The position numbers and the translations under genes are program-made. Below are positions 1 through 15,255 of a stretch of DNA of 15,271 nt, in pieces. The number at the start of each line of letters is the position of its first letter. Position 1 is the stretch's first letter. Origin of the DNA: Candidatus Nanohalarchaeota archaeon (lineage in GTDB: Archaea > EX4484-52 > B79-G9); contig JAFCBV010000004.1 in the NCBI GenBank assembly GCA_017610545.1, positions 1 to 15,271 of the forward strand, given 5' to 3'. Below the pieces are notes generated by a model. That model saw only the letters and a list, made by a program, of their open reading frames with translations. It did not search any database and was not told where the DNA came from.

Positions 1-3000
1 GGCGTCATCTGCGAGCGCAAAAGCTCTATTGATTCATTCCTGATGCCTGTGACAGGAATGTAGTTTCGGACATCTATGAACGAAGTATGATTGTATGTAT
101 GTACTCGAATATTTGTTCCAAGAGCAGAGTCTGTGTCAAGAACGTATTTTGCACTCCGGTACATGCCATCAATACAACTGAAAGCAAGTGTGCCGCTTTC
201 TCCAGCAGGAATTGTCATCGGTGTGTTCACAGCAGAAGCGGAAAAGTACTCATATACGGTTATGTTGATACTTTCAGTGTCCTCTGTACCCTCTGAATTG
301 TTGACTTTTATCGTGATCTCGGAGACACCATAAGTTGTGGTGTTAACAAGCCAGTAAACAGTTTTTGTATCTGCCTCTGTGATTGTTCCAAGAGATCTTA
401 TCCTTCCGTCAACATCCCATGCTGCAGGGGCAATCAGCTCTGCGTATACATCATTTGAATCAGCAACATAACTCTTTATGTCAACCTTTATTGTGATGTT
501 GTTGTACTGAAAAGTCTCGTTCGGTGAATTATATTCCTCAATTTCCGGGGTGGCTGCGCAACCCGCAAGGGTAAGTGTTGTTGTAAAATTCTCTGTGCTG
601 TAATTTTTGTAGTACGCTCCCGATCCAGGATATGAATTAGACACATATGCGCGCCAAAGCTGGGCTCCGGAAACATAAGAGCATGTTGGCAAAAACTCGT
701 ATGTTGCATTGCCGTCAGAATCCGTGTATGCTATCCCGAACTCTTTTACCCCGTCAGGATAATTAGCGTGGAGAAGCTCAAAGTGAACTTCCGCTGACGG
801 GCTCAGGTTATAGGTGCTTGCTACAAAGTCATACACACCCACAGAGAAATTGACCGGCACACTTGTTGTCGGGTTGCTCTCATTCCCTGCACGATATTCC
901 ACGCTGACATTGTCCTTTAGAAGAGTAAATGTATCAAAGCCGGATGTCTCCTCATTATTCAGACCGAATTTAAAGAACCATGCACCCACATCCTGATAAG
1001 TAAAGTTCTTGAACCAGTTCATTGTTGTGTTGAGGCAATCGGGGGCGACACATGTTATGTTTGTCTGATTGACGCAGTCGCTGCACTCAGTAAATCCTGT
1101 CGGAGATCCTGATGCAAGAAGGACATCCACATCATAGGGGTCGTCGTCACCACTGCTTGCCGAAACGCTGAAGTTCCAGTTGCGGTAACCCCATCCCCGG
1201 CTTGTTGGCAAAATTGACGGCTCATATAAAGTATATACAGGGAAAAGATAAAACAAGCCAAGGTCGCCTGCTACGTAATTTGAGGTTGAGTTTGTGTAGT
1301 AGTAAGACGCATTTGCCATCATTGTCGTGTTGTAGTATCCTTCAGGCGTCGAAATGTTTGTCTGCCAGTCGCAATTAAATGCGTTTGCACCGACCTGTAT
1401 AACCGGGTCGCACTCAAAATCATTGGTTGAGTGGTTCGCAAAATATCTTGCAGTTGCAGTCAATGGATCTCCGCAGTCGTCTGTTATTGCCCCAAGAAAG
1501 TTTATTTGATCTTTTTGTGTTGGATTTGTGGAGTTGAGGTTTTCATCAGGCTTCTGAAAATCAAGATTCATGTCGCCCCGGACAAAAGTATTTTTCTGCA
1601 TATTGCTTGTGTACGAATCGTTCTGCTGATAACAAGACAAAGCAGAATCATTTATCTCAATCTTCCACTGCTGTTCACCGACTGCGAACTTTGGTGCTCC
1701 TGCATATTCGTTAGAACATGTTGCATCATAGTAAAGGTTTGCATATGCCGAGCTGTTGGTAAGCACAACGTAATTGTCGTCAGAGTACCAGCCGGTCTGG
1801 GTGTTGTTGTTGTATGTTACTGAAAACTTGATTGGAAATCCGCTCAAGTATGTGCCATTAGCATCCTGCACGATGAAATTCATGATGCTTGTCTGGCTTC
1901 CTCTTCGGTTAGCTGTAACACCATCTCCTGTTGTTGATGCATTGTAGATGTAATTGACTTTTTCTTTGTCAACAGTGAATGTCTGTAGTGATGTGGTTTT
2001 GACGGTTCCGTTGTAGTTCGTGGCATTGAAGAAGAAATAATTTGTTCCATAATCAGTGCATCCGAAGTTCTGACTGAATGTCAGGTTCTGCCAATCTCCC
2101 GGAGGGATTGTATAATTTTGCTGGCCCCTTGAAGTCCATGGGCCTGCTGCACTCGGCCCGGTCCAGAGAAATACCGTAACATTGTTTAATCCGGTTGTAT
2201 TTACAGATACATTGAATATGAAGTTTCCCGCGCCCCAGCTGGCTGAAGACGGTGAGATAAATCCCTCCTCAAGATATATCTGAACATCGCTTGTAAGAAC
2301 ATCAAAGCTATCGGTGCCTGCGGTCTCAAGGTCAAACTCACCTGTGCCTGTGTTGTTCATAACAAACTTGTAGAACCATGTGCCTGCATCGCTTTCAGAT
2401 GAGAAGTTGACAACCCAGTTGTAAGTTATATTCACACAAGTAGTACAATTGGTCAAAGTCACATTCGCGCACTGGGCAACATCACCGCAGTTGGACCATT
2501 CACTTGAGCCTTTTTTCAGCTGCAGCACGATTGTCTCATTTGAATTATCGCCGCTTGTCGCAATCACTGAAAAATTCCAATTAGGAGTATCCCACAAAGC
2601 AGCGGTTGGATTAACGCTGTAGTTCCAGAATTCCCTGAAAGGCAGGACATAAAACAGGCCTTCTGCTGCACCATAGCTCAATGAGTTGTTTGGATAATAA
2701 TCTGCCTTAGACACAAACATAGATGCATTGTACCCTTGTACCGGTGTGCTCATGTTTGTCTGCCAATAGCACTGATACGCGTTCGCACCGATGAGTGTCT
2801 GGTTTCCGCAATCGAAACCAGCATTTGTGCTGTAATTGGCATAGTACTTTATCTCCTCATAACCGTATGTCGTATTTAATGTCAGGGCATCTCCGCAGTC
2901 ATCATTTGTGTATCCCAAAAACATTATGCTGTCAAGCTGAGTAACATTTGATGTGCCGTCCGGGTTGTTTAGGTACATCATTATGTTTCCGCTTACATTC

Positions 3001-6000
3001 AGTGTTGTGCTGTATATCAATGAAGAGTCATTCTGCTGATAGCATGTTGTCTCTGATGTGTTGATGTCAATTTTCCAGTCCTGCACCCCTACTGCAAACT
3101 TCGGTGCTCCGGTATAATCTCCCAAACAAGTTGGGTTGAAATAAAGGTGGGCGTAACCTGTGCTGTTTGTTGTGTTCACAAGAGCTTCATCAGAGTATGG
3201 ATTTGAGCTGTCAGTCTCAACATAGAATTTTGTTGCAAAGTTCGGCAAATATGTGCCGTTCTCATCCTGTATCCGAAAAATAAGAACATCTGTCTGGTCG
3301 CCGTTTCTGTTGGCAACAGTATCATTTCCGTATATGTATTTTACATTTACCTTTTCTTTTGCGATGTCAAAAGAGTTTGCTGTAGAGGTATTGGTGTTTG
3401 TTGAGTTGTCTTCAAGGAAGAACCTGTACTGCACAGACTCCGGCTCAAGGCCGCATGCAAATGTTGTTGAAAAGTCAAACTGTGTCCAGGCACTGCACGC
3501 TACGCATTCCTGCTCAGCAATGTCGTTCCAGTTTGTTCCATTATAAATCTGAAGTGTGACGTTTGTATCGTCATCATCACCATCCATTATCTGGACTGAA
3601 AAATTCCATGTTGTTGCCCACCCTGCCGAGGCGGCTGACTCAACACCATTCACCATCGTGTTCTGATAGTAAGGATCCCAGTTGACATTTATGTCAACGG
3701 TGTAGAAGGCGGACTGGTTGTATGAATAACATGAATCTGTGTTACTGATATACCCAAGCCAGTTCTCCAAATTTGTGTTCCATCTTCCATCCGGCGCAAA
3801 GTAATGGTACACATGCCCTGTTGCGTTTGTCTGATTGTTGTCACTTGTTATGTTTGATGTTCCGGGACCATCTGAGGTGACATTGAAATAGACTGTAAGG
3901 GCATTAGGAATGTCATACCCTCCAACGTCCTGATCATAGACCTGCAACACAAATTCTGCCGGAGCTCCGGGTGTTGCTGTATCGCCATCACCGTCAACAT
4001 AATCAATCTGTATCTTGTCATTGATGAGTGAAATGGGTGCTGCACTGCTGTTTTCCTTGGTGTTGCCGTCATTATCTGTTGCATTGAACTTGTAGTATCT
4101 TGTTCCCATTGCCTGCTTCTGTGTGCATGTGTAGTTGTATAAGAAAGACAGCACCGTGCCGGAACATGGGCTGCAGCTGTCTGAGCCGATTTGCACCCAG
4201 TCTCCACCTGAAGCCATCTCCCAAAGATAAACATTGACTGTGTCTGCAACGTCATCGGTCACATTTATCGTGAAGTTTCTCTGTGCACCCCATCCCCCAT
4301 TCCCGGGAGTGACAGAAGGGTTTTCCAAAAGCGGGACTGCCTTCAGATAGAATGCATCTCCAAAAACAGAAGAGCCTGCATGGTAATATGTCTTTGATGA
4401 GTTTATTGTGACATTGTAGTATCCCTTGTAAAAGCCAAAGTCAGTTGCTATAGAACACTTCCAGACACTTTCTGAACCGTCATAGCTTGCAAGGCAGTTT
4501 GCTGCTTCATAGCCGGAAGAATTAATCATTTTGAAATACACTACCGTATCTGATGTGATATCTGCATCGCAATCGTCTTTTATAGTGCCCGTGAATATTA
4601 TTGTGTCTGTTACTGAATAATTCGCGCTCCCGTCAGGAAGGGTTATGGTGTTCAGGAGTGTTCCGTAAAGCATGAAAGGCAATGAATTGTGCGGCTCAGG
4701 CTCTGTAATGTTTTGCTTAAAGCATGCTGCCCCACCCAGCATTCCGCCCTTCCAATAATTTTGTCCAAGTGAGAAGTATGACTTGCACCATGCATCTGTG
4801 TTGTTGACCATTTCCCTGTTTACATGCCCTGTGCTGTTTACCTCAATATATGCAATATCATAAGTGTCGTTGCTGTTATATTTGGATATGTAAATCGGAG
4901 TTCCTGTGCTTGTGACTTCATTAGGGCTTATTGCAGTGTTCCTGTCAGCATCAATAATTTCTATTGTGAAGTTCAGTGCAGTGCTCCTGTTGACTGTTGC
5001 GTTCCACCCTGGGCTTATATTGTAGACATTGACATCGTCTTTTTCTATTGCAAAAGAATAGCCTGAGTCAGGACCCCATGAATTATTGTAATTGCCTGCT
5101 GAATTGTCAGATGCATTTATCCTGAAATATGCATCTGTATCCAACTGCGAATATGTATTGTTGCATACAAAGCCCTTGTATTCAATAGTCTTGTTCTGCT
5201 CTGGTGTGCATGAGGTACATAATGTTTCGTTCAGATAACTGTGCGCTCTTGCCACACCATATGTTTCGTTCCACCACAAAGTAAGGTTGACATTGTTCCC
5301 TTGCGGGTCGTCAACGCTTATATTAAAATAAAACCTCTCGCCCCAGCCGCCTGTTGTAGTGGTTTCCCAGCTTGAGGCACTTTCGGATTTCACTAACGGC
5401 GTGCTCAACTGCGGTGCAGCTTCCTGCCAGCACCATGTGTAATTCACATTAAAAACATCAGTAACAACCTTATTGCCCCCGGTAACATAAACAGTATAAT
5501 TAGAAGTATTAAATCCAAGCCCCGTAAGATTACATGTAGCGTCTTCATAATCTACTGGAGGTGTACCATAAAGTCTGCCGCAGCTCCATTCTGGTCCCGT
5601 GACATCAAACGCATCAGCCCGAAGAATTGGATTACCATCATAAATTGGATAATAGTGCGCACTGTCTGTTGGATTTATAATATATACATAACCATTTCCC
5701 GAACCAGGACCGGTCATAACAAACCTATTATTGACAGTAAAATTAACCATCTGACAATTCAAACCCCCTGAAAGACAGTTATTGTCCGGAGTCCAGGTAT
5801 AATAATTGGTTGCTTTAGCAGCACTCCATGTAACAGCTTGCTGATATTCAACACAACTATACCCCGTCAACCCATAATCACTCGCAGACAACTTCGGCAC
5901 TGTGAAAACAATTGTGTCGTCAACACCGTTGCCGTCTGCATCCTCGAAGGTCACGTTAAAGCGCGAGTCATTCATGATTGAAGTCGGTTTATCAAAGAAT

Positions 6001-7445
6001 TTTTCTGTACCGTTCAACCATAAAAGATCAATAAAACCGTTCTTCAACAGCTTGTCGTAGTGCTCGGGATACGGTATCCTGACAGTGACATTCTCATAGT
6101 GCAGAGTGTTGTTCTCGTCATCATGGCTTATTCTTATGGTGTCGTAGAAATTTGTGTTTGGCGGAAGCTCGTCTTCAGGGACTTTTTCAAGATTCATTTG
6201 CGGTGCAGGTGTCTCATATTCTACAACATATTCGCGTATCTCTTTTGGCTTGATTTTTGGCTCTTTCCATTTTCTTTCATTTGCCTTTACCTTTGTTTTA
6301 GCAGATGAATATGTTAATGTGCCTTTTTTCTTTGGCACCGTCTCCATGACAACAATGTTTGTTGACAACGCAGGGATGCCGGTATCTATCTCTTCACCAA
6401 TTGCGTCAGAATCTTCTGTGTTTTGGACACGTATTGTCTTATACCACTTGACAGGCTTGCCCACTTCCGCAGACCCCTGGACAAGCTCTATTTGTTCAAC
6501 AACGAGTTTGGTTTCATTTGTTTTGTTGCACTCAACAAAAATTCCGATTGAGTCTGTTGCACTTATTGAATTATTGTCTGTGCTTGTTGCTGTCGCGCTT
6601 ACAGTATAACTATCGTTGCATACATTCGGAATAACTGACATCTTCCCACTCACGGATTCATTTGCCTTAATGTAAAATGTTTTTTCTGTCTCGCCTGCAG
6701 AAAACGAAGAAGGAATTTCAAAATGCAGGCTTATGTTTGACGGGGCATCGAGAGAGGCAACTGTGTATGATATGTCAAAGCTATTTGAAACATTCACAAT
6801 TGACGGCGACGAAATTGAAAATGTCAGGTGCGGATAAACAACCTGAGTTATTGTCACATTAACTGTTTCATTCAACAGTTCTGTTTGGTTTGTTTCATTG
6901 GCTGTTTCGCCTTCGTCCACCATCCCTAAAGAAACCTCTTTTTCTGAAGAGTAAAGAAACTCTGAGTTCACTCCTTCAAAAACAGCTCTTATTATGTGGC
7001 TGCCTGAAGAGAGATTCAATAGAGTTTCTGCCTGCCCAGGGTTATCCGTTGTTGCTGTTCCTAAAACATTGTTGTCAATATAAAATATTATTTCTGCCTG
7101 CTCAAGTGCTGTGCCGTTGTCAAGATACAGACTGGCGCGCGCATGGCTTTCATTTGCCTGAAGCTCAAGCATTGTTTCTGCCCAGACATTGAATGCTGCG
7201 GTTGCCTCAATAGTTTTTGGGTTTTGTGTGTCGCCTGCTCCGATAGCCATTCCGGTTATGTTTCCGCCAATTGTTGAGTTGGTTGCAATAACTGTTGCAG
7301 AAGTCATGAACAAAATGAATAATGGCAGAAACATGTGCCCCTGCCCTGATTCTGATTTCTTTGCGCCCCGCAGGTTTCTGTGCGAAGGTCCTTTTCTGCC
7401 AAAGCGCCCTGCTCCAATTCCGAGGGGTGTGATGGCGTTATTCAT
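1..7445 (-). CDS. Giant multidomain surface protein (adhesin or S-layer-like), 3' end beyond window
   Basis: The frame is open from ATG 7445-7443 to the window edge, at least 2,481 codons. I spot-checked it codon by codon at many places and found no stop or frame change. Residues 1-37 are basic (GRFGRKG, RNLRGAKK), and about 38-54 (FLPLFILFMTSATVIA) form one membrane segment, either signal peptide or anchor. The rest is extracytoplasmic in style: N-x-S/T sequons roughly every 20-25 residues, many Trp/Tyr, few Lys. An Ig-like domain lies at about 72-176, a Lys-rich stretch at about 390, and DADGNGVDD, a calcium-loop-like motif, at about 501-509. From about 690, beta-sandwich modules recur: a GW...(N/W)F.V strand, a CxxC pair in most, a WF/YKF strand, then (K/D)D.V.V.Y. 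Three DDC domains lie near 958, 1515 and 1990. It follows gene 7438-8523 with an 8-base overlap; a GAGG-like ribosome site lies about 9 bases upstream. I recognise no named family. Attachment or envelope function is inferred. Confidence 0.9.
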   Translation of the reverse strand, partial: MNNAITPLGIGAGRFGRKGPSHRNLRGAKKSESGQGHMFLPLFILFMTSATVIATNSTIGGNITGMAIGAGDTQNPKTIEATAAFNVWAETMLELQANESHARASLYLDNGTALEQAEIIFYIDNNVLGTATTDNPGQAETLLNLSSGSHIIRAVFEGVNSEFLYSSEKEVSLGMVDEGETANETNQTELLNETVNVTITQVVYPHLTFSISSPSIVNVSNSFDISYTVASLDAPSNISLHFEIPSSFSAGETEKTFYIKANESVSGKMSVIPNVCNDSYTVSATATSTDNNSISATDSIGIFVECNKTNETKLVVEQIELVQGSAEVGKPVKWYKTIRVQNTEDSDAIGEEIDTGIPALSTNIVVMETVPKKKGTLTYSSAKTKVKANERKWKEPKIKPKEIREYVVEYETPAPQMNLEKVPEDELPPNTNFYDTIRISHDDENNTLHYENVTVRIPYPEHYDKLLKNGFIDLLWLNGTEKFFDKPTSIMNDSRFNVTFEDADGNGVDDTIVFTVPKLSASDYGLTGYSCVEYQQAVTWSAAKATNYYTWTPDNNCLSGGLNCQMVNFTVNNRFVMTGPGSGNGYVYIINPTDSAHYYPIYDGNPILRADAFDVTGPEWSCGRLYGTPPVDYEDATCNLTGLGFNTSNYTVYVTGGNKVVTDVFNVNYTWCWQEAAPQLSTPLVKSESASSWETTTTGGWGERFYFNISVDDPQGNNVNLTLWWNETYGVARAHSYLNETLCTSCTPEQNKTIEYKGFVCNNTYSQLDTDAYFRINASDNSAGNYNNSWGPDSGYSFAIEKDDVNVYNISPGWNATVNRSTALNFTIEIIDADRNTAISPNEVTSTGTPIYISKYNSNDTYDIAYIEVNSTGHVNREMVNNTDAWCKSYFSLGQNYWKGGMLGGAACFKQNITEPEPHNSLPFMLYGTLLNTITLPDGSANYSVTDTIIFTGTIKDDCDADITSDTVVYFKMINSSGYEAANCLASYDGSESVWKCSIATDFGFYKGYYNVTINSSKTYYHAGSSVFGDAFYLKAVPLLENPSVTPGNGGWGAQRNFTINVTDDVADTVNVYLWEMASGGDWVQIGSDSCSPCSGTVLSFLYNYTCTQKQAMGTRYYKFNATDNDGNTKENSSAAPISLINDKIQIDYVDGDGDTATPGAPAEFVLQVYDQDVGGYDIPNALTVYFNVTSDGPGTSNITSDNNQTNATGHVYHYFAPDGRWNTNLENWLGYISNTDSCYSYNQSAFYTVDINVNWDPYYQNTMVNGVESAASAGWATTWNFSVQIMDGDDDDTNVTLQIYNGTNWNDIAEQECVACSAWTQFDFSTTFACGLEPESVQYRFFLEDNSTNTNTSTANSFDIAKEKVNVKYIYGNDTVANRNGDQTDVLIFRIQDENGTYLPNFATKFYVETDSSNPYSDEALVNTTNSTGYAHLYFNPTCLGDYTGAPKFAVGVQDWKIDINTSETTCYQQNDSSLIYSTTLNVSGNIMMYLNNPDGTSNVTQLDSIMFLGYTNDDCGDALTLNTTYGYEEIKYYANYSTNAGFDCGNQTLIGANAYQCYWQTNMSTPVQGYNASMFVSKADYYPNNSLSYGAAEGLFYVLPFREFWNYSVNPTAALWDTPNWNFSVIATSGDNSNETIVLQLKKGSSEWSNCGDVAQCANVTLTNCTTCVNITYNWVVNFSSESDAGTWFYKFVMNNTGTGEFDLETAGTDSFDVLTSDVQIYLEEGFISPSSASWGAGNFIFNVSVNTTGLNNVTVFLWTGPSAAGPWTSRGQQNYTIPPGDWQNLTFSQNFGCTDYGTNYFFFNATNYNGTVKTTSLQTFTVDKEKVNYIYNASTTGDGVTANRRGSQTSIMNFIVQDANGTYLSGFPIKFSVTYNNNTQTGWYSDDNYVVLTNSSAYANLYYDATCSNEYAGAPKFAVGEQQWKIEINDSALSCYQQNDSYTSNMQKNTFVRGDMNLDFQKPDENLNSTNPTQKDQINFLGAITDDCGDPLTATARYFANHSTNDFECDPVIQVGANAFNCDWQTNISTPEGYYNTTMMANASYYYTNSTSNYVAGDLGLFYLFPVYTLYEPSILPTSRGWGYRNWNFSVSASSGDDDPYDVDVLLASGSPTGFTECSDCVNQTNITCVAPDCLNTTMNWFKNFTYQDVGAWFFKFGLNNEETSGFDTFTLLKDNVSVEYRAGNESNPTTSVPVNFSVGVYDFVASTYNLSPSAEVHFELLHANYPDGVKEFGIAYTDSDGNATYEFLPTCSYVSGAQLWRAYVSNSYPGSGAYYKNYSTENFTTTLTLAGCAATPEIEEYNSPNETFQYNNITIKVDIKSYVADSNDVYAELIAPAAWDVDGRIRSLGTITEADTKTVYWLVNTTTYGVSEITIKVNNSEGTEDTESINITVYEYFSASAVNTPMTIPAGESGTLAFSCIDGMYRSAKYVLDTDSALGTNIRVHTYNHTSFIDVRNYIPVTGIRNESIELLRSQMT

Positions 7446-8523
7446 AGGTAGCCCTCACTTTGATTTCGTTTTCCCCAAGCAGGGTTTCGTATGACAGTTG
7501 GATGGTGAATTGCAATTCAGAAGATTCGCCGACAGCAAGAGAATCTATTGTTTTGCTTGCTTCGGTGGCGCTCGCGCCAGCCTGCATTTCCAGATCAACC
7601 ACGATATTTTTTGCAGGCGCAAAACCTGTATTTGCCAAACGAACGACTAGTGTGAATGTATCTCCTCTTTTGATGTCTGATGGAAAAACAAGTGAGGCTT
7701 CCAGTGTTGCCTCTTCAAGAACCGGTATTGTAACGTCCGGCAGATCATCATCACTGCTGTTGTTTTCAGCTGGCGGCTCCGGTGATGTGGTTGTGTTGTT
7801 TGAGTCATCAATTGTTTCGTTTAGGTCCTGTGTTTCATTGACGGACTCATATAATGCGGGACTTTGTATTTCGCTGCTTTCATTCTCAACTGGAATTGTT
7901 ATTGGCTCAGGCAAAATTTCAGGTACGAGATTAATGCTATTTGGGGGGTTTTCCGATGATGAATTTTCTTGAGATTTGTTTGCAGATTCATCCTGCGGTG
8001 CTGAAGGGTTTTCCTGCAGAAGCTCTTCATCACCATCGGCAGGTATGACGACTTCTGTGTCGTCAGGATTTGTTGCAGCAGGTGTTTGCGGTTCCCGAGG
8101 TTCGTCACCACCCGGTTCTTCTGTCGGCACGTCTATCTGAGGCTCATCATCCGCAGGTTCTGTGATTGGAGCAGCATCACCTGATTCTTCCGGAGGCTCT
8201 TCTAAAATCGGTGCTGTGGCGGGCGCGGTATGTTCTGTTTCGTTTTGTCCGGGAACTCCAACAGCAAAACCTGTCGGTGTGCTCATGCCATCAGAAAAAG
8301 ACATATTCGGTGCTGTGGAATTCATAAAAGTGTATGCAACGATAAGGGACTGGCTAAGGACTATTCCGCTCAGAAAAATGAATGTAACGGCATTTGCCTG
8401 TGATTTAAGGGCAACACATGATTTTCTTATGCGCGCCTTGGCAAAAGGCGTTTTTAGATTGCAGGCAAGGGAGTTTTTTCCTAATATAAATAAAAGAAAC
8501 AACGTAAGCAGTACTCTGTGCAT
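7438..8523 (-). CDS. Membrane-anchored acidic stalk protein with C-terminal CARDB-like domain
   Basis: From the chosen start at 8523 the protein has 361 residues. An N-terminal hydrophobic run (VLLTLFLLFILG, residues 4-15) ends in SLAC. A short basic stretch follows, then a second, longer membrane segment at about 43-67 (ANAVTFIFLSGIVLSQSLIVAYTF). Residues 85-265 form a low-complexity stalk rich in Pro, Glu, Asp, Asn and Ser with several N-x-S/T sites. The last 85 residues (LVVRLANTGFAPAKNIVVDLEM, then GESSELQFTIQL) look like a CARDB/NEW3-type Ig-like domain. An upstream in-frame ATG at 8580 would add 19 residues. I prefer 8523 because CGGGAG lies 7 bases before it and the extension would cover a perfect palindrome. 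The gene is first in an operon with the giant surface protein and shares TG(F/M)A(V/I)G after the membrane helix with it. It may be a partner or scaffold of that protein; this is inference. Confidence 0.82.
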   Translation of the reverse strand: MHRVLLTLFLLFILGKNSLACNLKTPFAKARIRKSCVALKSQANAVTFIFLSGIVLSQSLIVAYTFMNSTAPNMSFSDGMSTPTGFAVGVPGQNETEHTAPATAPILEEPPEESGDAAPITEPADDEPQIDVPTEEPGGDEPREPQTPAATNPDDTEVVIPADGDEELLQENPSAPQDESANKSQENSSSENPPNSINLVPEILPEPITIPVENESSEIQSPALYESVNETQDLNETIDDSNNTTTSPEPPAENNSSDDDLPDVTIPVLEEATLEASLVFPSDIKRGDTFTLVVRLANTGFAPAKNIVVDLEMQAGASATEASKTIDSLAVGESSELQFTIQLSYETLLGENEIKVRATYE

Positions 8524-8530
8524 GAAATAT

Positions 8531-8536
8531 CTCCCG
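8531..8536 (-). promoter_or_regulatory. Ribosome binding site deciding start 8523
   Basis: The minus strand reads CGGGAG followed by ATATTTC and then ATG at 8523-8521. The 7-base gap suits an archaeal Shine-Dalgarno site. The alternative ATG at 8580 has no such purine stretch before it, so this site favours the shorter protein. Confidence 0.6.
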
Positions 8537-8548
8537 GATAAGCTTCTA

Positions 8549-8566
8549 TAACCAATGCATTGGTTA
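8549..8566. repeat. 18-bp perfect palindrome in the operon leader
   Basis: TAACCAATGCATTGGTTA is its own reverse complement over 18 bases. It sits between the predicted transcription start (about 8590) and the ribosome site at 8531-8536. It could be an operator for a dimeric regulator or, in RNA, a short hairpin in the leader. The overlapping GGTTAACC at 8562-8569 is also symmetric. Confidence 0.75.
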
Positions 8567-8610
8567 ACCCATGTATCCATACATTAATGTACATATATTG
8601 AGATAGCGCC

Positions 8611-8837: not shown

Positions 8838-10172
8838 TTAGTAAAGAAATGTTTCTGTGCCTGTGCGCGCTGTAATCTCACCGGCATAATTTGTAAGCAT
8901 CATCTTTTCAGCTTCTTTAGTGTCTTTTGTATGGCCCAGCACCCATCCAAGCTTAACATATGCTGTTTCAGGTAGCATGTCCTTAAGATATACAACGCCG
9001 AGTGAAAGTACTTTTCTCCCCTCACCATATATAAGAGGGTCAAGCCTGCCATATAGTGTTTGCGCGGCAGCGCAAACAAGCATTCCAGAATTGATTGCGC
9101 GCTTTATTGCCGGAAGCCAGTTGTTTTTGCTCTCATCTGTTGCTACATGTCCGAGTCCTGTTGCCTCTATGACAACGCCACGGTATTTTTTCTCGCGAAG
9201 AAAGTCAATCATTTCAGGGTTTGCGCCAGGGCAGTATTTTATGAGTGCGACTTTTTCCTCGAACTTCGTGTCTGCAATCACTTTTCCTTCGGCCCTCTTT
9301 TTGTGTTCACCCAAATATTCTGTATTTCCGTCAGGCCAGATCTTTGCAACAGGAACATCATTTACCGGGCGGAATGTATGGCGCACGGAAGTATGCATCT
9401 TTCTTACCTTTGTGCCCCTGTTTGCAATACAGAACGTATCTGCTGATTCGCCGTGCCCTACAAGCACAACCTCTGCGATATCTGATGTTGCGGCAACTTT
9501 TGCTGCACACACGAGGTTCATGGGTGTATCTGTGCTTCCCCTGTCAGTCGAGCGCTGGGAATATGTAAGAACAACTGGTCCTGTAAGGTTTTTCAGCATG
9601 AAAGATAAAGCTGCGGAGGTATAATGAAGTGTGTCTGTGCCATGTGTGACCACTACGCCCTTGTCGCCTTCGTTCAGGAGCCGGGCACAGGTCTCTGCAA
9701 GCTTTTGCCAGTGCCCGAAATCCATGTTTTCTGATGCAATAAGAAACGGCTTTTCTATCTTTCGAAATACTGCAATTTTCTGAAGTTCCGGTGCAAGGAA
9801 AAAGAGCTGGCCTGCATCCATCAGCCACTTGACGCCGCCGGTCTCATAAGACACGCGCGAACTTATAGTCCCTCCTGTTGCAACGAGCGATATTTTCGGC
9901 AAAGTTTTATCTGATGAAAACTTTAGTGAAGGAAATGCCTCAAGTTCCGCCCCTTTGCCGCTCTTTTTTATTTTCATGCTTTCTTCGAACTTTATGCCGA
10001 TATTGTAGCCGCTCTTGAGCTTAAGGATTATGTTGTCTTTGCTTCCACCGAAATCAGGGCGAGGCATAAGTATGCCTTCGTATTCTTTCCCGTCTTTCTG
10101 AATAAGTTTTACTTTGTCGCCGGAAGATATTTTTTCTTTCTTCAAACAGGAGTTTATTTTCGCGGAATACAT
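8838..10172 (-). CDS. gatD: Glutamyl-tRNA(Gln) amidotransferase subunit D
   Basis: GatD is the asparaginase-like subunit of the archaeal GatDE complex. It releases ammonia from glutamine or asparagine, and GatE uses it to turn Glu-tRNA(Gln) into Gln-tRNA(Gln) in the cytoplasm. The 444 residues match the family length. Residues 15-62 (GDKVKLIQ..YEGILMPRP) form the small N-terminal beta-barrel. The L-asparaginase fold starts at about 92, with catalytic signatures ATGGTISS (nucleophile Thr102) and VTHGTDTLHYT (Thr179, Asp180). RGTKVRKMHTS at 252-262 carries the conserved Lys/His region (Lys255 or Lys258). The N-terminal domain and the long insert distinguish it from plain asparaginase. The start is supported by a TATA box 25 bases upstream. 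GatE is not next to it, so the partner must lie elsewhere in the genome. Confidence 0.96.
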   Translation of the reverse strand: MYSAKINSCLKKEKISSGDKVKLIQKDGKEYEGILMPRPDFGGSKDNIILKLKSGYNIGIKFEESMKIKKSGKGAELEAFPSLKFSSDKTLPKISLVATGGTISSRVSYETGGVKWLMDAGQLFFLAPELQKIAVFRKIEKPFLIASENMDFGHWQKLAETCARLLNEGDKGVVVTHGTDTLHYTSAALSFMLKNLTGPVVLTYSQRSTDRGSTDTPMNLVCAAKVAATSDIAEVVLVGHGESADTFCIANRGTKVRKMHTSVRHTFRPVNDVPVAKIWPDGNTEYLGEHKKRAEGKVIADTKFEEKVALIKYCPGANPEMIDFLREKKYRGVVIEATGLGHVATDESKNNWLPAIKRAINSGMLVCAAAQTLYGRLDPLIYGEGRKVLSLGVVYLKDMLPETAYVKLGWVLGHTKDTKEAEKMMLTNYAGEITARTGTETFLY

Positions 10173-10193
10173 ACCTGTTATTTTGGCTTATTG

Positions 10194-10201
10194 TTTATAA
10201 A
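10194..10201 (-). promoter_or_regulatory. TATA box of gatD (leaderless)
   Basis: TTTATAAA is centred 25 bases before the gatD ATG, in the 38-base gap after the pilin-like gene. This spacing puts the transcript start at or next to the start codon, which indicates a leaderless mRNA and a transcript separate from the gene upstream. Confidence 0.6.
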
Positions 10202-10210
10202 CCAATTCTT

Positions 10211-10942
10211 TTAGTGGATATTGAAGTTTTTCACAGAAATGTCAATAAAATCGCTTCCGCTTCGAAGAGTGAAATATACATCGTATGATGCGGCGGTTGT
10301 ATTCAGGTGTGCAATAACTCTTCCGCGCGCAATATTCAGCCCGGTCTCCTCCGGATATGTGTAACCGGTTCCATTCCCTGCAGTTGCCGACTCATCAATC
10401 AGAATATCAACTGTGCCGTCAAAATGTGTTCCGGTTCCCTTAAAATAGATGTCTTCAACAAGCCCTGATGTATTGAGTGGTGCATAATAAGATGAATTTC
10501 CTGCCATTGTCAGGTTAACGCGAAGATGCTCATTTTCAAGAATCCATGACGCACCATTATCATAAACATTTACAGACGACCCTGAAGAGAATATCAAAGC
10601 ACCTATTGAGGTCCTTGTTCCGGGAGAAATCACTTCTGCTCTTGTGTCTATTTCGTACGCGATTGTATCAAGGTCTGCTGAAAATACAAAGTCTCCGCGC
10701 TTTATCTGAAGCGGAACAACGCGCGATGAGCCCCGGCCTTCTTCAGCAACCAGTGAGATGATTTTGTCAAGGTTTGAAAGAGAATCCTTTGCCTGATCAA
10801 TTGCAGCAGCATCTTTCATGTTCGCGAGCGCCGGCGCTCCGGTCTGAACCACGATGGTCACTCCTGCAATAGCAATCGCAAAATAAAGCACTCCTGCAAA
10901 AAGTGGGGAGATTCCTTTTCTTATTTTTTTCCACTGAACCAT
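10211..10942 (-). CDS. Type IV pilin-like secreted protein with class III signal peptide
   Basis: From the ATG at 10942 the protein has 243 residues. It begins with a short basic leader and a KKIRKG-ISPLF junction, followed by a hydrophobic helix of about 20 residues (FAGVLYFAIAIAGVTIVV). This is the class III signal used by archaeal prepilin peptidase, with cleavage expected after Gly10. The mature part starts with a helix rich in Ala, Asp and Lys, then becomes beta-rich with a few N-x-S/T sites. The upstream ATG at 10984 is unlikely, because the TATA box at 10966-10973 would lie inside the coding sequence. No ATPase or membrane platform gene lies nearby, so this is a stand-alone pilin-like protein. 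Whether it forms a filament or stays an anchored envelope protein cannot be told from sequence. Confidence 0.78.
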   Translation of the reverse strand: MVQWKKIRKGISPLFAGVLYFAIAIAGVTIVVQTGAPALANMKDAAAIDQAKDSLSNLDKIISLVAEEGRGSSRVVPLQIKRGDFVFSADLDTIAYEIDTRAEVISPGTRTSIGALIFSSGSSVNVYDNGASWILENEHLRVNLTMAGNSSYYAPLNTSGLVEDIYFKGTGTHFDGTVDILIDESATAGNGTGYTYPEETGLNIARGRVIAHLNTTAASYDVYFTLRSGSDFIDISVKNFNIH

Positions 10943-10965
10943 GCCCCTAATTGTGTAACGCACGA

Positions 10966-10973
10966 TATAAATA
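10966..10973 (-). promoter_or_regulatory. TATA box of the pilin-like gene
   Basis: The minus strand reads ATTTATAT, centred about 28 bases before the ATG at 10942. It indicates a leaderless or nearly leaderless transcript and rules against the longer start at 10984. Confidence 0.58.
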
Positions 10974-10989
10974 TTTGAGAACACGGAAC

Positions 10990-10997
10990 GTATTTAA
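10990..10997 (+). promoter_or_regulatory. Candidate TATA box of the metallopeptidase gene
   Basis: GTATTTAA lies about 27 bases before the ATG at 11021, a normal archaeal spacing. It stands back to back with the pilin-like promoter in the divergent gap. A GGGAG stretch at 10999-11003 lies between box and start but is too far from the ATG to be a clear ribosome site. Confidence 0.42.
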
Positions 10998-11020
10998 TTG
11001 GGAGATGCCCATAGTGTTAT

Positions 11021-11574: not shown

Positions 11575-13077
11575 ATGAGAACAATGAATCTTAAAGCAAA
11601 ATTCATGGACTTTGAGGCAGGGCTGCCGTTTGTTGTAATGAACATACTTGACGCAAAAGAGCTTGGAGTCTATGTTAATGACCGCGTCACGCTTTCGCAC
11701 GGCAAAATCAAAAAGACAGCATATATTGAAACAACAAAGCACCTTGTAAAAACCGGAGAGATTGGAATCCGAAAAGAATCTGTAAAATACGGAATCAAAA
11801 AAGGGACTCTGATAAAAGTAGTTCCGTCTAAAAGGCCGGCATCTATTGAAATCATACGAAAAAAACTCAAGGGCCATGAGCTTAAGAAAGCTGAGATTGA
11901 GACACTTGTCTCGGAAATAAACGCCAACCGGCTAAGCGACATTGAGCTGGGAGTATTTGTCTCATCTGTGTATATCAGAAAACTATCACAAAAAGAGATT
12001 CTGTATCTCACACGCGCAATGATTTCATGCGGAAAATGCCTTGACTGGGGAGACCGCATTGTTGTAGATAAGCATTCAATCGGAGGTGTTCCCGGAAACC
12101 GCGTAACGCCTATTGTTGTTGCAATTGTCGCGGCTTGTGGGGTGCTAATGCCGAAGACGTCTTCGCGCGCAATAACCAGTCCGGCAGGAACTTCAGACAC
12201 CATGGAGGTGTTCTGTGATGTTTCATTCTCATCAAAAGAGGTTAAGCGAATTGTAAAAAAGACAGGAGCGTGCATTGTCTGGGGTGGCTCGCTTGACTTG
12301 GCCCCTGTTGATGACAAACTCATACGAATCGAACATCCTCTTTCGATTGACCCTGAGGGGCAGGTTCTTGCATCTGTTATGTCAAAGAAAAAATCAGTTG
12401 GCTCAAAATATGTTGTGATAGATATTCCATACGGGGACGGCTCAAAAGAAGGAGACATCGCCGGAGCTGAAGAGATTGCAAAAAAATTCAAGTGGCTCGC
12501 GCGCCAGCTTGACATGAGGGCAGAATGTACGATAACGCGGGGCGACCAGCCAATAGGTTTTGGGGTCGGCCCTGTGCCGGAGGCAATAGATATTGTTGAT
12601 GTCTTTGATGGCAAGGGTCCTGATGACCTTCGGGAAAAATCACTTGAGCTTGCAGGAATTCTTCTTAAGATGACAAAAAAAGGCAACATAAAGACTGCAA
12701 AAGATATTCTTGATTCCGGAAAAGCAAAAGCAAAATTTTATGAAATTGTTAAAGCACAAAACGGAGTTCCCGGAAAAGATGTACGAAAACTTCTTGGAAA
12801 ACACAGGAAACGATTCTTTGCAAGCTGCTCTGGATTTGTTGTACGCCTTGACAATCGCGCTGTTGCAAGGACTGCGAAGCTTGCGGGCGCGCCAAAAGAC
12901 ATTGGTTCGGGCATCATACTTCGCGCGAAAAAAGGCGATAAAATTTCAAAAGGAGACCTTCTTTTTGAGATATATGCTGAACAAAAATACAAACTTGCTG
13001 AAGCAGAAAAATACGCAAGAAAAAACAGCCTGTTTTTTGTGGGCGCAAAGAATGTAATGGTTGTGGAAATGGTTTAG
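11575..13077 (+). CDS. deoA: AMP phosphorylase (archaeal thymidine phosphorylase family)
   Basis: The enzyme phosphorolyses AMP (also CMP and UMP) to the base and ribose 1,5-bisphosphate, the first step of the archaeal AMP pathway feeding form III RuBisCO. The 500 residues match the archaeal enzyme, which has an extra N-terminal domain (here about 1-85) absent from bacterial thymidine phosphorylase. An alpha-helical lobe starts at about 90. Phosphate and nucleotide motifs are visible: KHSIGGVPGNR at 166-176, KTSSRAITSPAGTSDTMEV at 194-212, and WGGSLDLAPVDDKL at 236-249, where Asp246/Asp247 is the likely general acid. Met4 (11584) is an equally good start, since family members begin near MKLKAK; GGAG at 11556-11559 is rather far from either. 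RuBisCO and ribose-1,5-bisphosphate isomerase are not in the window. The next gene is phosphoglycerate mutase, 49 bases on. Confidence 0.94.
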   Translation: MRTMNLKAKFMDFEAGLPFVVMNILDAKELGVYVNDRVTLSHGKIKKTAYIETTKHLVKTGEIGIRKESVKYGIKKGTLIKVVPSKRPASIEIIRKKLKGHELKKAEIETLVSEINANRLSDIELGVFVSSVYIRKLSQKEILYLTRAMISCGKCLDWGDRIVVDKHSIGGVPGNRVTPIVVAIVAACGVLMPKTSSRAITSPAGTSDTMEVFCDVSFSSKEVKRIVKKTGACIVWGGSLDLAPVDDKLIRIEHPLSIDPEGQVLASVMSKKKSVGSKYVVIDIPYGDGSKEGDIAGAEEIAKKFKWLARQLDMRAECTITRGDQPIGFGVGPVPEAIDIVDVFDGKGPDDLREKSLELAGILLKMTKKGNIKTAKDILDSGKAKAKFYEIVKAQNGVPGKDVRKLLGKHRKRFFASCSGFVVRLDNRAVARTAKLAGAPKDIGSGIILRAKKGDKISKGDLLFEIYAEQKYKLAEAEKYARKNSLFFVGAKNVMVVEMV

Positions 13078-13094
13078 GTACCGGCTTCCCAGAA

Positions 13095-13103
13095 CATATA
13101 TAT
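13095..13103 (+). promoter_or_regulatory. TATA box of the phosphoglycerate mutase gene
   Basis: CATATATAT lies in the 49-base gap after AMP phosphorylase, centred about 28 bases before the ATG at 13127. It suggests a leaderless transcript from its own promoter and supports 13127 over the in-frame ATG at 13061, which would overlap both the upstream gene and this box. Confidence 0.6.
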
Positions 13104-13126
13104 CCTCACCAAACAAGAAATACATC

Positions 13127-14626
13127 ATGGCAGAACCCCTTGTTCTCGTTGTTCTTGACGGATTCGGAATCGGAAAATCGTATAATGGAAACGCGGTTTA
13201 TCTTGCAGACAAGCCAAACTTTGATTCTCTCTGCAAAACATACCCACACACAACACTTCAGGCATCAGGCGAAGCTGTCGGGCTTCCGGACCACCAGATT
13301 GGCGGCTCAGAGGTCGGGCATATGCACATGGGTGCCGGGCGAGTCATGCCACAGGACCTTGTGCGCATCAACAGTTCAATAAAGGACAGAAGCTTTTACA
13401 AAAATAAAGCCATTAAAGGGGAAATTCTTCGCTCAATAAAGAGTGGTGGCTCACTTCATTTTATCGGGCTTCTTTCTGATGGCGGCGTACATTCTCACAT
13501 AAACCATCTTTTCGCTCTTCTTGAGTTATCGAAAAAACTCGGGCAGAAAGAGGTATTCATCCATGCATTTCTTGACGGGCGCGATGTCCCGCCTAAATGC
13601 GCAGGAAAATACATTGCACTGCTTTCAAAAAAAATGCAGGAACTCGGGATTGGGCAGATTGCAACACTTATCGGAAGATATTATGCAATGGACCGGGACA
13701 ACAGGTGGGAGCGCGAGCATAAGGCGTATGACGCGATTGTGAACGGTAACGGAACAAGTGCAAAATGCGCTGAAGATGGGCTTTGTGCTGCATATGCCCG
13801 GGGAGAAAGCGATGAGTTCGTTTCCCCGATAGTGATTAGTGGAACCTCGCGTGTCAAAGACAAAGACTCGATAATATCATTCAATTTTCGCTCTGACCGC
13901 GCGCGCCAGATTACGCAGGCATTTGTTGACAAAAAATTCAATCAATTCAAGCGCAAACTGCTTGATGTTGGCTTTACAACACTTGCGCAGTATGACTCAG
14001 AAATAAATGCGCCTGTTGCATTTCCTCCTGTCAAGACAAAAAACATTCTTGCAGAAATGATAAGTAAACAGAAGTTGCGCCAGCTTAGAATTGCAGAAAC
14101 CGAGAAGTATGCGCATGTCACATACTTCTTCAATGCAGGACGCAACGGGCCTTTTTCCAAGGAAGACCGAATCCTCATACCCTCACCAAAAGTATCAACC
14201 TATGACACGAAACCGGAAATGAGTGCAGACAAAGTCGCGAGGGCGGCATGCGCTGAGATAAAAAAAAGAAAACATGCGTTCTCGCTCATAAATTTTGCAA
14301 ACCCTGACATGGTCGGGCACACAGGGAAAATTGATGCAACGGTTACGGCCATAGAATGTGTTGATAAGTGCCTTGGAAACGTTATTGATGTGACCTCAAA
14401 AGCAGGTGCAACTTTGATTGTAACTGCAGACCACGGCAATGCTGAAAAACTGATTGAACACAATATACCGCACACTGCACACACACTGAACCCTGTGCCA
14501 TTCATACTCTGCAAGGAAAACTTCTCTCTTAGAAACGGCGGCAGTCTTGCAAACATAGCCCCCACTGTTTTAGAACTCATGAATCTAAAAAAACCAAAAG
14601 AGTTTTTGCCAGCCCTTATAAAATAG
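13127..14626 (+). CDS. gpmI: 2,3-bisphosphoglycerate-independent phosphoglycerate mutase
   Basis: The enzyme interconverts 3- and 2-phosphoglycerate in cytoplasmic glycolysis and gluconeogenesis, using two metal ions (usually manganese) and a phosphoserine. The 499 residues suit the two-domain GpmI form. Visible motifs are VVLDGFGIG (metal ligand Asp11), GGSEVGH (phosphorylated Ser61), SDGGVHSH (His122), FLDGRDVPP, IGRYYAMDRDNRWER, FNFRSDRARQ, NPDMVGHTG (Asp394, His398), ADHGNAE (Asp435, His436) and AHT (His452). The serine motif is usually GNSEVGH; here Asn is Gly. It is the bacterial-type alkaline phosphatase superfamily enzyme, not the shorter archaeal ApgM. The start at 13127 begins MAEPLVLVVLDG, as expected for the family. 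A longer reading from 13061 would add 22 residues unlike the family. The methyltransferase follows after 8 bases. Confidence 0.96.
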   Translation: MAEPLVLVVLDGFGIGKSYNGNAVYLADKPNFDSLCKTYPHTTLQASGEAVGLPDHQIGGSEVGHMHMGAGRVMPQDLVRINSSIKDRSFYKNKAIKGEILRSIKSGGSLHFIGLLSDGGVHSHINHLFALLELSKKLGQKEVFIHAFLDGRDVPPKCAGKYIALLSKKMQELGIGQIATLIGRYYAMDRDNRWEREHKAYDAIVNGNGTSAKCAEDGLCAAYARGESDEFVSPIVISGTSRVKDKDSIISFNFRSDRARQITQAFVDKKFNQFKRKLLDVGFTTLAQYDSEINAPVAFPPVKTKNILAEMISKQKLRQLRIAETEKYAHVTYFFNAGRNGPFSKEDRILIPSPKVSTYDTKPEMSADKVARAACAEIKKRKHAFSLINFANPDMVGHTGKIDATVTAIECVDKCLGNVIDVTSKAGATLIVTADHGNAEKLIEHNIPHTAHTLNPVPFILCKENFSLRNGGSLANIAPTVLELMNLKKPKEFLPALIK

Positions 14627-14634
14627 CACATTTA

Positions 14635-15255
14635 ATGAAAATGATGGTCTTTGAGCACAGGGGTATGAAAATCTCATTTTGCGATGGAGTTTACGAGCCA
14701 TCAGAGGACAGTTTCCTGCTTCTTGATGCGCTTGAAAAAGAAACGTGGAGTGGTACAGAATCTGTGCTTGAGATTGGCTGCGGTACAGGAATTGCATCAA
14801 TATTTCTTTGCAAAAGAGTAAAAGAGGTCTTTTCACTTGACATAAACATGCGCGCTGTTTCGTGTACTAAGCAGAATATGGCAAACAACGGGGTTTTAAA
14901 CAGCCATGTTTTCTCAAGCGATCTTTTTTCAGCCATCAATGCCAGAAAATTTGATGTCGTTATCTTCAACACACCATACTTGCCGGAAGACAAAGAAACA
15001 GGAAAATTCAGTGACCCTGCATGGAGTGGCGGGCAAAGCGGCAGGAATGTCATCGATAGATTCCTTAAAAACGCGCTAAATCACATTACAACGCGTGGCA
15101 AAATATTTATTGTTGAGTCAAGCCTGTCGGATTACCAAAAGACCCTTGATTTTTTTAATGCGCATATGTTTAATGCGGAAGTTGCTGAAAGAAAAAACCT
15201 AGCATTTTCATTCAAAAAATTTACAGCTCCATCAGCAGGGCTTGCGCGATGGTGA
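14635..15255 (+). CDS. HEMK2/Mtq2-type N5-glutamine methyltransferase (release factor)
   Basis: This 206-residue SAM-dependent methyltransferase most likely methylates the glutamine of the GGQ motif in archaeal release factor aRF1, probably with a Trm112-like partner. VYEPSEDSFLLLDAL at 19-33 is the hallmark of the HEMK2/Mtq2 branch. Motif I is VLEIGCGTG at 44-52, with the acidic residue Asp69 in SLDIN. The catalytic (N/D)PP(Y/F) motif appears as FNTPYLP at 111-117, with Thr for the first Pro. There is no N-terminal helical domain like that of bacterial PrmC, which again fits the archaeal/eukaryotic form. It starts 8 bases after the mutase stop and is probably cotranscribed. ATGs at 14641 and 14644 are alternative starts differing by 2-3 residues. 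Confidence 0.88.
   Translation: MKMMVFEHRGMKISFCDGVYEPSEDSFLLLDALEKETWSGTESVLEIGCGTGIASIFLCKRVKEVFSLDINMRAVSCTKQNMANNGVLNSHVFSSDLFSAINARKFDVVIFNTPYLPEDKETGKFSDPAWSGGQSGRNVIDRFLKNALNHITTRGKIFIVESSLSDYQKTLDFFNAHMFNAEVAERKNLAFSFKKFTAPSAGLARW

Follow-up and report, generated by a model that had tools for sequence, protein, structure and literature searches.

It is not settled how DPANN archaea take hold of their hosts and live off them, and one gene brings the question to the window analysed here, the whole 15,271-nucleotide stretch that makes up contig C84 of a Candidatus Nanohalarchaeota genome (G000). The assembly comprises 953,128 bases in 184 contigs (82.65% complete), and its bearer is very likely the small-genome DPANN archaeon that the initial annotation had supposed. 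That annotation had taken the gene for a giant surface protein, a candidate for host attachment or for the main envelope layer, and had recognised no named family. What does such a gene encode, and where does it end? An envelope layer is not the likeliest answer; most probably, the window gene encodes the outer portion of a contact protein of the SPEARE kind that is anchored to a motor.

The open frame and its surface features

The frame begins with an ATG at 7445 and runs on the minus strand to base 3, where it exits the contig. Its 2,481 codons, the 7.4 kb noticed at the outset, contain no in-frame stop on full translation. The features of the window are listed below, each with the basis of its assignment.

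3..7445, minus strand: giant protein, N-terminal part, 2,481 residues (open frame, dN/dS, homologues)
7284..7340, minus strand: N-terminal hydrophobic segment, putative signal or membrane helix, residues 36-54 (hydropathy)
5766..6548, minus strand: conserved domain, residues 300-560 (order-mates)
2262..3605, minus strand: repeat module, copy 1, residues 1281-1728 (self-comparison of overlapping pieces)
885..2225, minus strand: repeat module, copy 2, residues 1741-2187 (self-comparison of overlapping pieces)
7438..8580, minus strand: 380-aa secreted-type protein upstream of the giant, NEW3 domain at its C-terminus (NPCBM_assoc 30.8 bits, cut-off 24.4)
8838-10172, minus strand: GatD-type amidotransferase subunit (family match)
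10211-10984, minus strand: secreted/pilin-like 257-aa protein (single strong hydrophobic helix near the N-terminus, after KKIRKG; DUF7289 26 bits, cut-off 27)
11575-13077, plus strand: pyrimidine-phosphorylase/AMP-phosphorylase-like protein (family match)
13061-14626, plus strand: cofactor-independent phosphoglycerate mutase (family match)
14635-15255, plus strand: small methyltransferase (family match)

Compared with a genome of the same genus (G001), the giant's frame exhibited a dN/dS of 0.18 over 1,042 codons (residues 1-1045) and of 0.085 over 768 codons (residues 1714-2481). The selection acting on it is purifying, and the frame is therefore coding. Searched against 41 genomes, the window protein found matches in 11, its own included. 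The two stretches aligned with G001 (contigs C143 and C198) differ in divergence, with a protein identity of 75% and a dS of 0.93 in the first and of 92% and 0.49 in the second, which hints at recombination inside the giant gene.

The hydropathy scan located the predicted N-terminal membrane segment at residues 36-54 and no further segment above the threshold used; the region around it is common to the window protein and an intact orthologue in genome G079. The density of N-x-S/T sites (x not P) was also borne out. The 2,481 residues contain 121 of them (4.88 per 100 residues), against 45.4 +/- 5.8 and a maximum of 67 in 1,000 shuffles, while the four cytoplasmic enzymes of the window carry 0 to 0.58 per 100 residues.

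The protein had also been described as a series of repeated beta-sandwich modules. Repeats are present: pieces of residues 1281-1728 and 1741-2187 share 35-47% identity, with a repeat length of about 465 residues, and weaker repeats are found elsewhere in the protein. They were detected by BLAST of overlapping pieces, as a self-BLAST of the whole protein gave no off-diagonal rows, and no tandem array was seen in the window DNA. The beta-sandwich part of the description is its weakest. The only sign in the window is a sub-threshold Big_1 match (20.2 bits, cut-off 34.9), and matches above cut-offs to MG2, NEW3 (NPCBM_assoc) and DUF11 come from the G079 orthologue. AlphaFold2 models for residues 300-1150 and for a single repeat module are mostly strand, but their confidence (mean pLDDT 34.2 and 39.9) is too low to weigh on either side. 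The repeats are probably Ig-like. Additionally, residues 300-560 form a domain with 56-80% identity in G001, G013, G016, G019, G027 and G032; no match to it was found in G079.

The probable far end of the protein and its linkage through orthologues

In several order-mates, an open frame spans the full length of a contig. With the C-terminal 1,479 residues of one order-mate piece (G013:C16) as query, one strong match was obtained in G000, at bases 1-3546 of contig C71 (48% identity over about 1,180 residues), together with three further weak ones in C167 and C141 (E 5.8e-6 to 5.9e-4). C71 was likewise the sole G000 match for an alignment of the C-terminal ATPase. Its frame begins at the first base of the contig and encodes 1,184 residues, in which an Ig-like and NEW3-like region is followed by a glycine-rich linker, a hydrophobic helix, an ATPase and a conserved tail. 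The membrane helix occupies residues 786-804, and the adjoining stretch 766-784 also passes the threshold. Sequons number 26 in the 785 residues before the helix versus 1 in the 399 after its start. All 16 of the other giants or pieces of giants show this contrast, with an excess of sequons outside (z 15.7 to 37.6) and few inside, their last 395 residues holding 0 to 3. The initial annotation had advised looking for a C-terminal anchor or sorting signal. In C71, the probable far end, the anchor is a membrane helix with a HerA-type ATPase on its cytoplasmic side, and a sorting signal did not appear.

The two contigs are linked through orthologues. On a 100-kb contig of G079 (C2), a single uninterrupted frame encodes 11,262 residues. 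Near the N-terminus it is 35% identical to residues 28-197 of the window protein (174 aligned positions, E 9e-22), window-type repeats follow, and the frame closes with a C71-type end (44% over the C71 length, 65% in the ATPase part). Furthermore, a 9,591-residue frame in G024 (C30), cut at its 5' end only, joins repeats and ATPase. From these orthologues we infer that C84 and C71 are parts of one gene. Since the window end and the start of C71 map onto the G079 and G024 frames with about 7,740 and 6,750 residues between them, this mapping gives about 10,400-11,400 residues for the full product, which probably comprises some 10,000-11,000, and the window would hold roughly the outer N-terminal quarter; the repeat number may differ between species.

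This far end bears directly on the envelope-layer proposal. A plain S-layer protein or adhesin without a motor was set aside after the C-terminal piece and the intact orthologue turned up. A passive S-layer subunit would not be expected to carry a conserved motor, and the main envelope layer is therefore unsupported as the role of this protein.

The ATPase family and its relation to SPEARE giants

The C71 ATPase scores 42.6 bits against DUF87/HerA (cut-off 23.2), and its relatives of solved structure in a profile search are HerA proteins (best E 2.4e-9). In a tree alignment of 62 sequences, the glycines and lysine of Walker A (G, G, G, K) and the SQ motif are present in all 62, as is a tyrosine in the conserved tail after the ATPase; in Walker B the D is found in 62 of 62 and the E in 61. 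HerA/DUF87 ATPases share the Walker A, Walker B and conserved SQ motifs and a DUF87 match above the gathering score. The giant differs from them in that its ATPase belongs to the same polypeptide as a huge ectodomain, with a membrane helix between the two, and it reaches 32.7 bits in the HerA equivalog model, far below the cut-off of 800. A superfamily-level resemblance to the VirB4/TraG-type ATPases of type IV secretion was also observed. Unlike these, the giant has no match to the VirB4 N-terminal family in C71 or G079, its T4SS-DNA_transf scores (12.8 bits in C71, 19.1 in G079) lie below the cut-off of 20.1, and no secretion channel genes were seen among the few neighbours scanned.

An alignment of the C-terminal part (A2; 7 rows, 460 columns) matched 24 of 34 genomes of the window's phylum at 1e-15. 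Giants are thus not universal in DPANN symbionts, although the 10 genomes without a match are all less than 90% complete; of those with a completeness of 90% or more, 7 of 7 matched. Across archaea, at 1e-20, 67 of 394 genomes matched, and 33 of the 291 more complete ones. Among the 95 matches listed, 62 entered the tree; of the 33 omitted, 28 were additional matches in genomes of the window's phylum and 5 were fragmentary or weak (G253, G320, G036). Class A, the clade of the C71 ATPase, with 15 rows, forms one side of a branch supported at 100/100. The 8 nanohaloarchaeal rows, among which G091 and G337 are counted since they cluster with G201 and G050, form a separate group, also at 100/100. 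The two clades are neighbours in the midpoint-rooted drawing, the midpoint serving for drawing only. Among 66 stretches of viral contigs scanned with the ATPase alignment, no relatives were found.

A known architecture applies to this protein, and the initial view that no named family could be assigned no longer holds. In the available text of the reinterpretation by Reva et al. 2023, SPEARE giants are described with a signal, Ig-like repeats, a membrane helix, an ATPase named VirB4/TraG-like and a coiled coil; their loci carry a second ATPase gene, and secretion 'straws' are proposed (PMC10266531). The same text reports no protease or endonuclease in the known giants and no such giant in Ca. 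Nanohalobium constans, and calls a 9,409-residue protein the largest in cultivated archaea (PMC10266531). The references used here are SVXNc_0300 (9,409 aa), BNXNv_0298 (8,880 aa) and the 5,998-aa protein of Ca. Nha. antarcticus. Published values are 1,030,728 Da and pI 4.03 for SVXNc and 974,524 Da and pI 4.11 for BNXNv (PMC10266531, available text). The giants of G201 (9,409 residues; computed 1,030,748 Da, pI 4.05) and G050 (8,880 residues; 974,512 Da, pI 4.11) are very probably those of SVXNc and BNXNv, because length, mass and pI agree.

The window protein resembles these giants in its size of thousands of residues (2,481 and 1,184 in two pieces; 11,262 in the orthologue), mostly extracytoplasmic, in an N-terminal signal (here from hydropathy only, residues 36-54) and in a huge sequon-rich repeat ectodomain. 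Through C71, linked via the orthologues, it also has their C-terminal membrane helix, a cytoplasmic ATPase whose motifs agree with theirs, and an identical type of C-terminal tail; the C71 ATPase part is 44-48% identical to those of the SPEARE-type G201, G050 and G091. In contrast to the SPEARE giants, the class A ATPases form their separate clade. A second ATPase directly downstream, present in G201, G050 and G091, occurs in 0 of 13 class A loci, where a gene for a coiled-coil protein comes next and, in most loci, a second secreted giant after it. Pfam gave no match to laminin-G for the window and C71 (E up to 0.1), nor for 9,687 of the 11,262 residues of G079 and two G027 pieces (E up to 0.01).

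Parts of this picture are already in print. The accessible text of Hamm 2019 reports SPEARE proteins, detected by proteomics in a nanohaloarchaeon, and relatives of their intracellular part in Woesearchaeota, Aenigmarchaeota, Micrarchaeota and Altiarchaeales (PMC6642349). The giant architecture and the Aenigmarchaeota relatives of the cytoplasmic part are thus published, as far as the available texts extend. A 2024 study of Ca. Nha. antarcticus puts forward type IV pilus loci as candidates, and the word SPEARE is absent from its main text (PMC11291902). A separate clade with its own locus was not found in the literature searched, which lay outside most subscription journals and bioRxiv-only preprints. 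As an analogy only, the RSP protein of IncHI plasmids is likewise large, Ig-like and located at the surface, is linked to a type IV secretion system and is required for transfer between cells (PMC6764697); unlike the giant, it is bacterial and exported by a separate secretion system, and the text available mentions no ATPase fusion.

Gene neighbourhood and possible roles

In the window, the neighbours of the giant include housekeeping enzymes, and its immediate upstream neighbour is the 380-aa gene, which overlaps the giant's start by 8 bases (7438-7445). A frameshift between the two was considered and rejected, since the same overlap is present in G001, where the upstream gene likewise encodes a NEW3 protein, and, though the sequence has diverged, in G079. 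The G079 counterpart resembles the 380-aa protein over its last 133 residues (29%, E 2e-8). It lies at 6401-7321 of the stretch examined and encodes 307 residues that read as a helix-turn-helix, a membrane helix and an extracellular domain, with no NEW3 call; it is perhaps a membrane-tethered regulator beside the giant. In G013, G016, G019, G027 and G032, a MinD/ParA-like ATPase and a second, coil-type gene were observed upstream instead, and in G168 the MinD-like genes lie at the opposite end of the locus (Pfam was run on the neighbours in G013, G016, G027 and G168). MinD-type ATPases often position membrane machines, and such neighbours would fit a localised apparatus.

On the downstream side, the gene after the giant encodes a coiled-coil protein in all 13 class A loci where the next gene is visible. 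The third gene encodes a related secreted protein of up to about 2,100 residues where complete. It is co-directional in 9 loci, convergent in 1 (G360) and absent next door in G119 and G079; in G021 its position lies beyond what is visible. Because a helical hairpin is common to the third protein's tail and both ends of the coil protein (E 3.4e-5 to 5.5e-11), its presence suggests that the two may bind each other; no such hairpin common to the giant's tail and these partners was found (E 0.095-0.34). Homology between the class A coil partner and the nanohaloarchaeal one was also considered and not retained, the best E of 1.8e-20 being inseparable from the 1e-18 of the best heptad-shuffled control, in which a protein was compared with its own shuffle. 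Among the class A coil partners, the weakest pair reaches 2.6e-24.

A surface fibre plus motor is well supported by these observations. We consider it probable that the protein is a glycosylated fibre for contact with another cell, seated on an ATP-driven transport motor. Outside the cell, repeats that carry N-glycans and are probably Ig-like would form a long fibre, and the C-terminal membrane helix would anchor it to the cytoplasmic HerA-type ATPase. An extended chain of about 100 modules would span some hundreds of nanometres. The fibre would reach and bind another cell, as is thought for SPEARE giants, and the ATPase, which like its HerA relatives probably forms a hexameric ring, would drive a substrate, either protein or DNA, through the membrane where the cells touch. 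The coiled-coil partner and the second secreted giant encoded alongside probably complete the apparatus. The cell-contact role suggested at the outset is plausible in this form. Host binding itself, substrate transport and its direction are ascribed by analogy with known systems, as are N-glycosylation proper and the hexamer.

Alternatively, the protein may be a giant adhesin whose ATPase serves only to assemble, anchor or retract the fibre, with nothing transported to or from the other cell. The sequon-rich repeats and the MG2, NEW3 and DUF11 matches suit such a fibre, the MinD-like genes at related loci suit the positioning of a structure, and no gene for a classical type IV secretion channel was seen beside the giant among the few neighbours scanned. 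We nevertheless regard this as rather unlikely, as the HerA relatives with solved structures are by name DNA helicases or translocases, and the published reading of the nearest relatives, itself a hypothesis, is one of secretion (PMC10266531, available text).

A device for the uptake or passing of DNA, in which the HerA-type motor would move nucleic acid for nutrition or gene exchange, appears improbable. Next to HerA, weak matches were obtained to CedD (30.8 bits), TraB and TraD, all DNA-moving by name, and the T4SS-DNA_transf score in G079 comes close to its cut-off. Against this, the NCBIfam scores lie far under the curated cut-offs (600-970 for HerA and CedD), the matches to DNA-translocating families centre on the Walker motifs, and no nuclease-like gene was identified among the neighbours scanned. 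This similarity is too local to name a substrate. That the window and C71 belong to distinct genes, the window product being a secreted adhesin or S-layer protein of the ordinary, motorless kind, is very improbable. In favour of it, C84 and C71 show no end overlap, a 2,801-residue G001 piece used as query for a middle piece in G000 matched the window's contig alone, and repeats of the window type are widespread in relatives. Against it, a single G079 frame unites the window N-terminus, the repeats and an end of the C71 type, and the gene upstream of that frame shares the 8-base overlap and is related in its C-terminal part.

Going further than a contact fibre on a transport motor, the loci may tentatively be regarded as a class of adhesin-motor fusions of more than 10,000 residues, distinct from the nanohaloarchaeal SPEAREs, present in several small-genome archaeal families and provided with their own locus (a secreted companion or MinD-like genes upstream, the coiled-coil partner and the second secreted giant). 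That such a class constitutes a minimal apparatus for contact secretion or DNA transfer, in one polypeptide and with no classical channel, is possible but doubtful. The clade nevertheless adds a second group of motor-anchored giants beyond the nanohaloarchaea, with a partner gene conserved wherever the next gene is visible, and it offers testable parts in the ATPase plus tail, the coiled-coil partner and the upstream companion.

Such genes are easily overlooked: a contig end truncates the 5' side of 13 among the 15 C-terminal frames of class A, and annotation encounters them as fragments. One is intact (G079), and the remaining one (G132) is short, at 625 residues, with its 5' side not cut. 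In G001, G027, G032 and G021, pieces can be joined where contig ends overlap exactly, by 25-141 bases, and the G032 copy contains one in-frame TAG. In G021, contigs C42 and C43, both fully open, end in the same 127 bases that open C3; they are 99.2% identical over 130 bases, their proteins being otherwise about 32% identical, and the shared bases may reflect strain variants or an internal repeat. The giant's N-terminal piece stops at the same codon, at the contig end, in G013 (C14) and G019 (C11), which belong to one family; a second copy of the sequence ending these contigs was not found in either genome. Should these frames be correct, some archaeal proteins are longer than 11,000 residues (11,262 in G079 and 12,145 in G019), compared with the 9,409 residues of the protein named as the largest in cultivated archaea. 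The G019 frame, on contig C8, has a HerA-type end that falls on the nanohaloarchaeal side of the tree. Two more frames come after it, one of 1,393 residues that carries another HerA-type ATPase and one of 579 residues, and the whole represents a SPEARE-side locus inside the window's own order.
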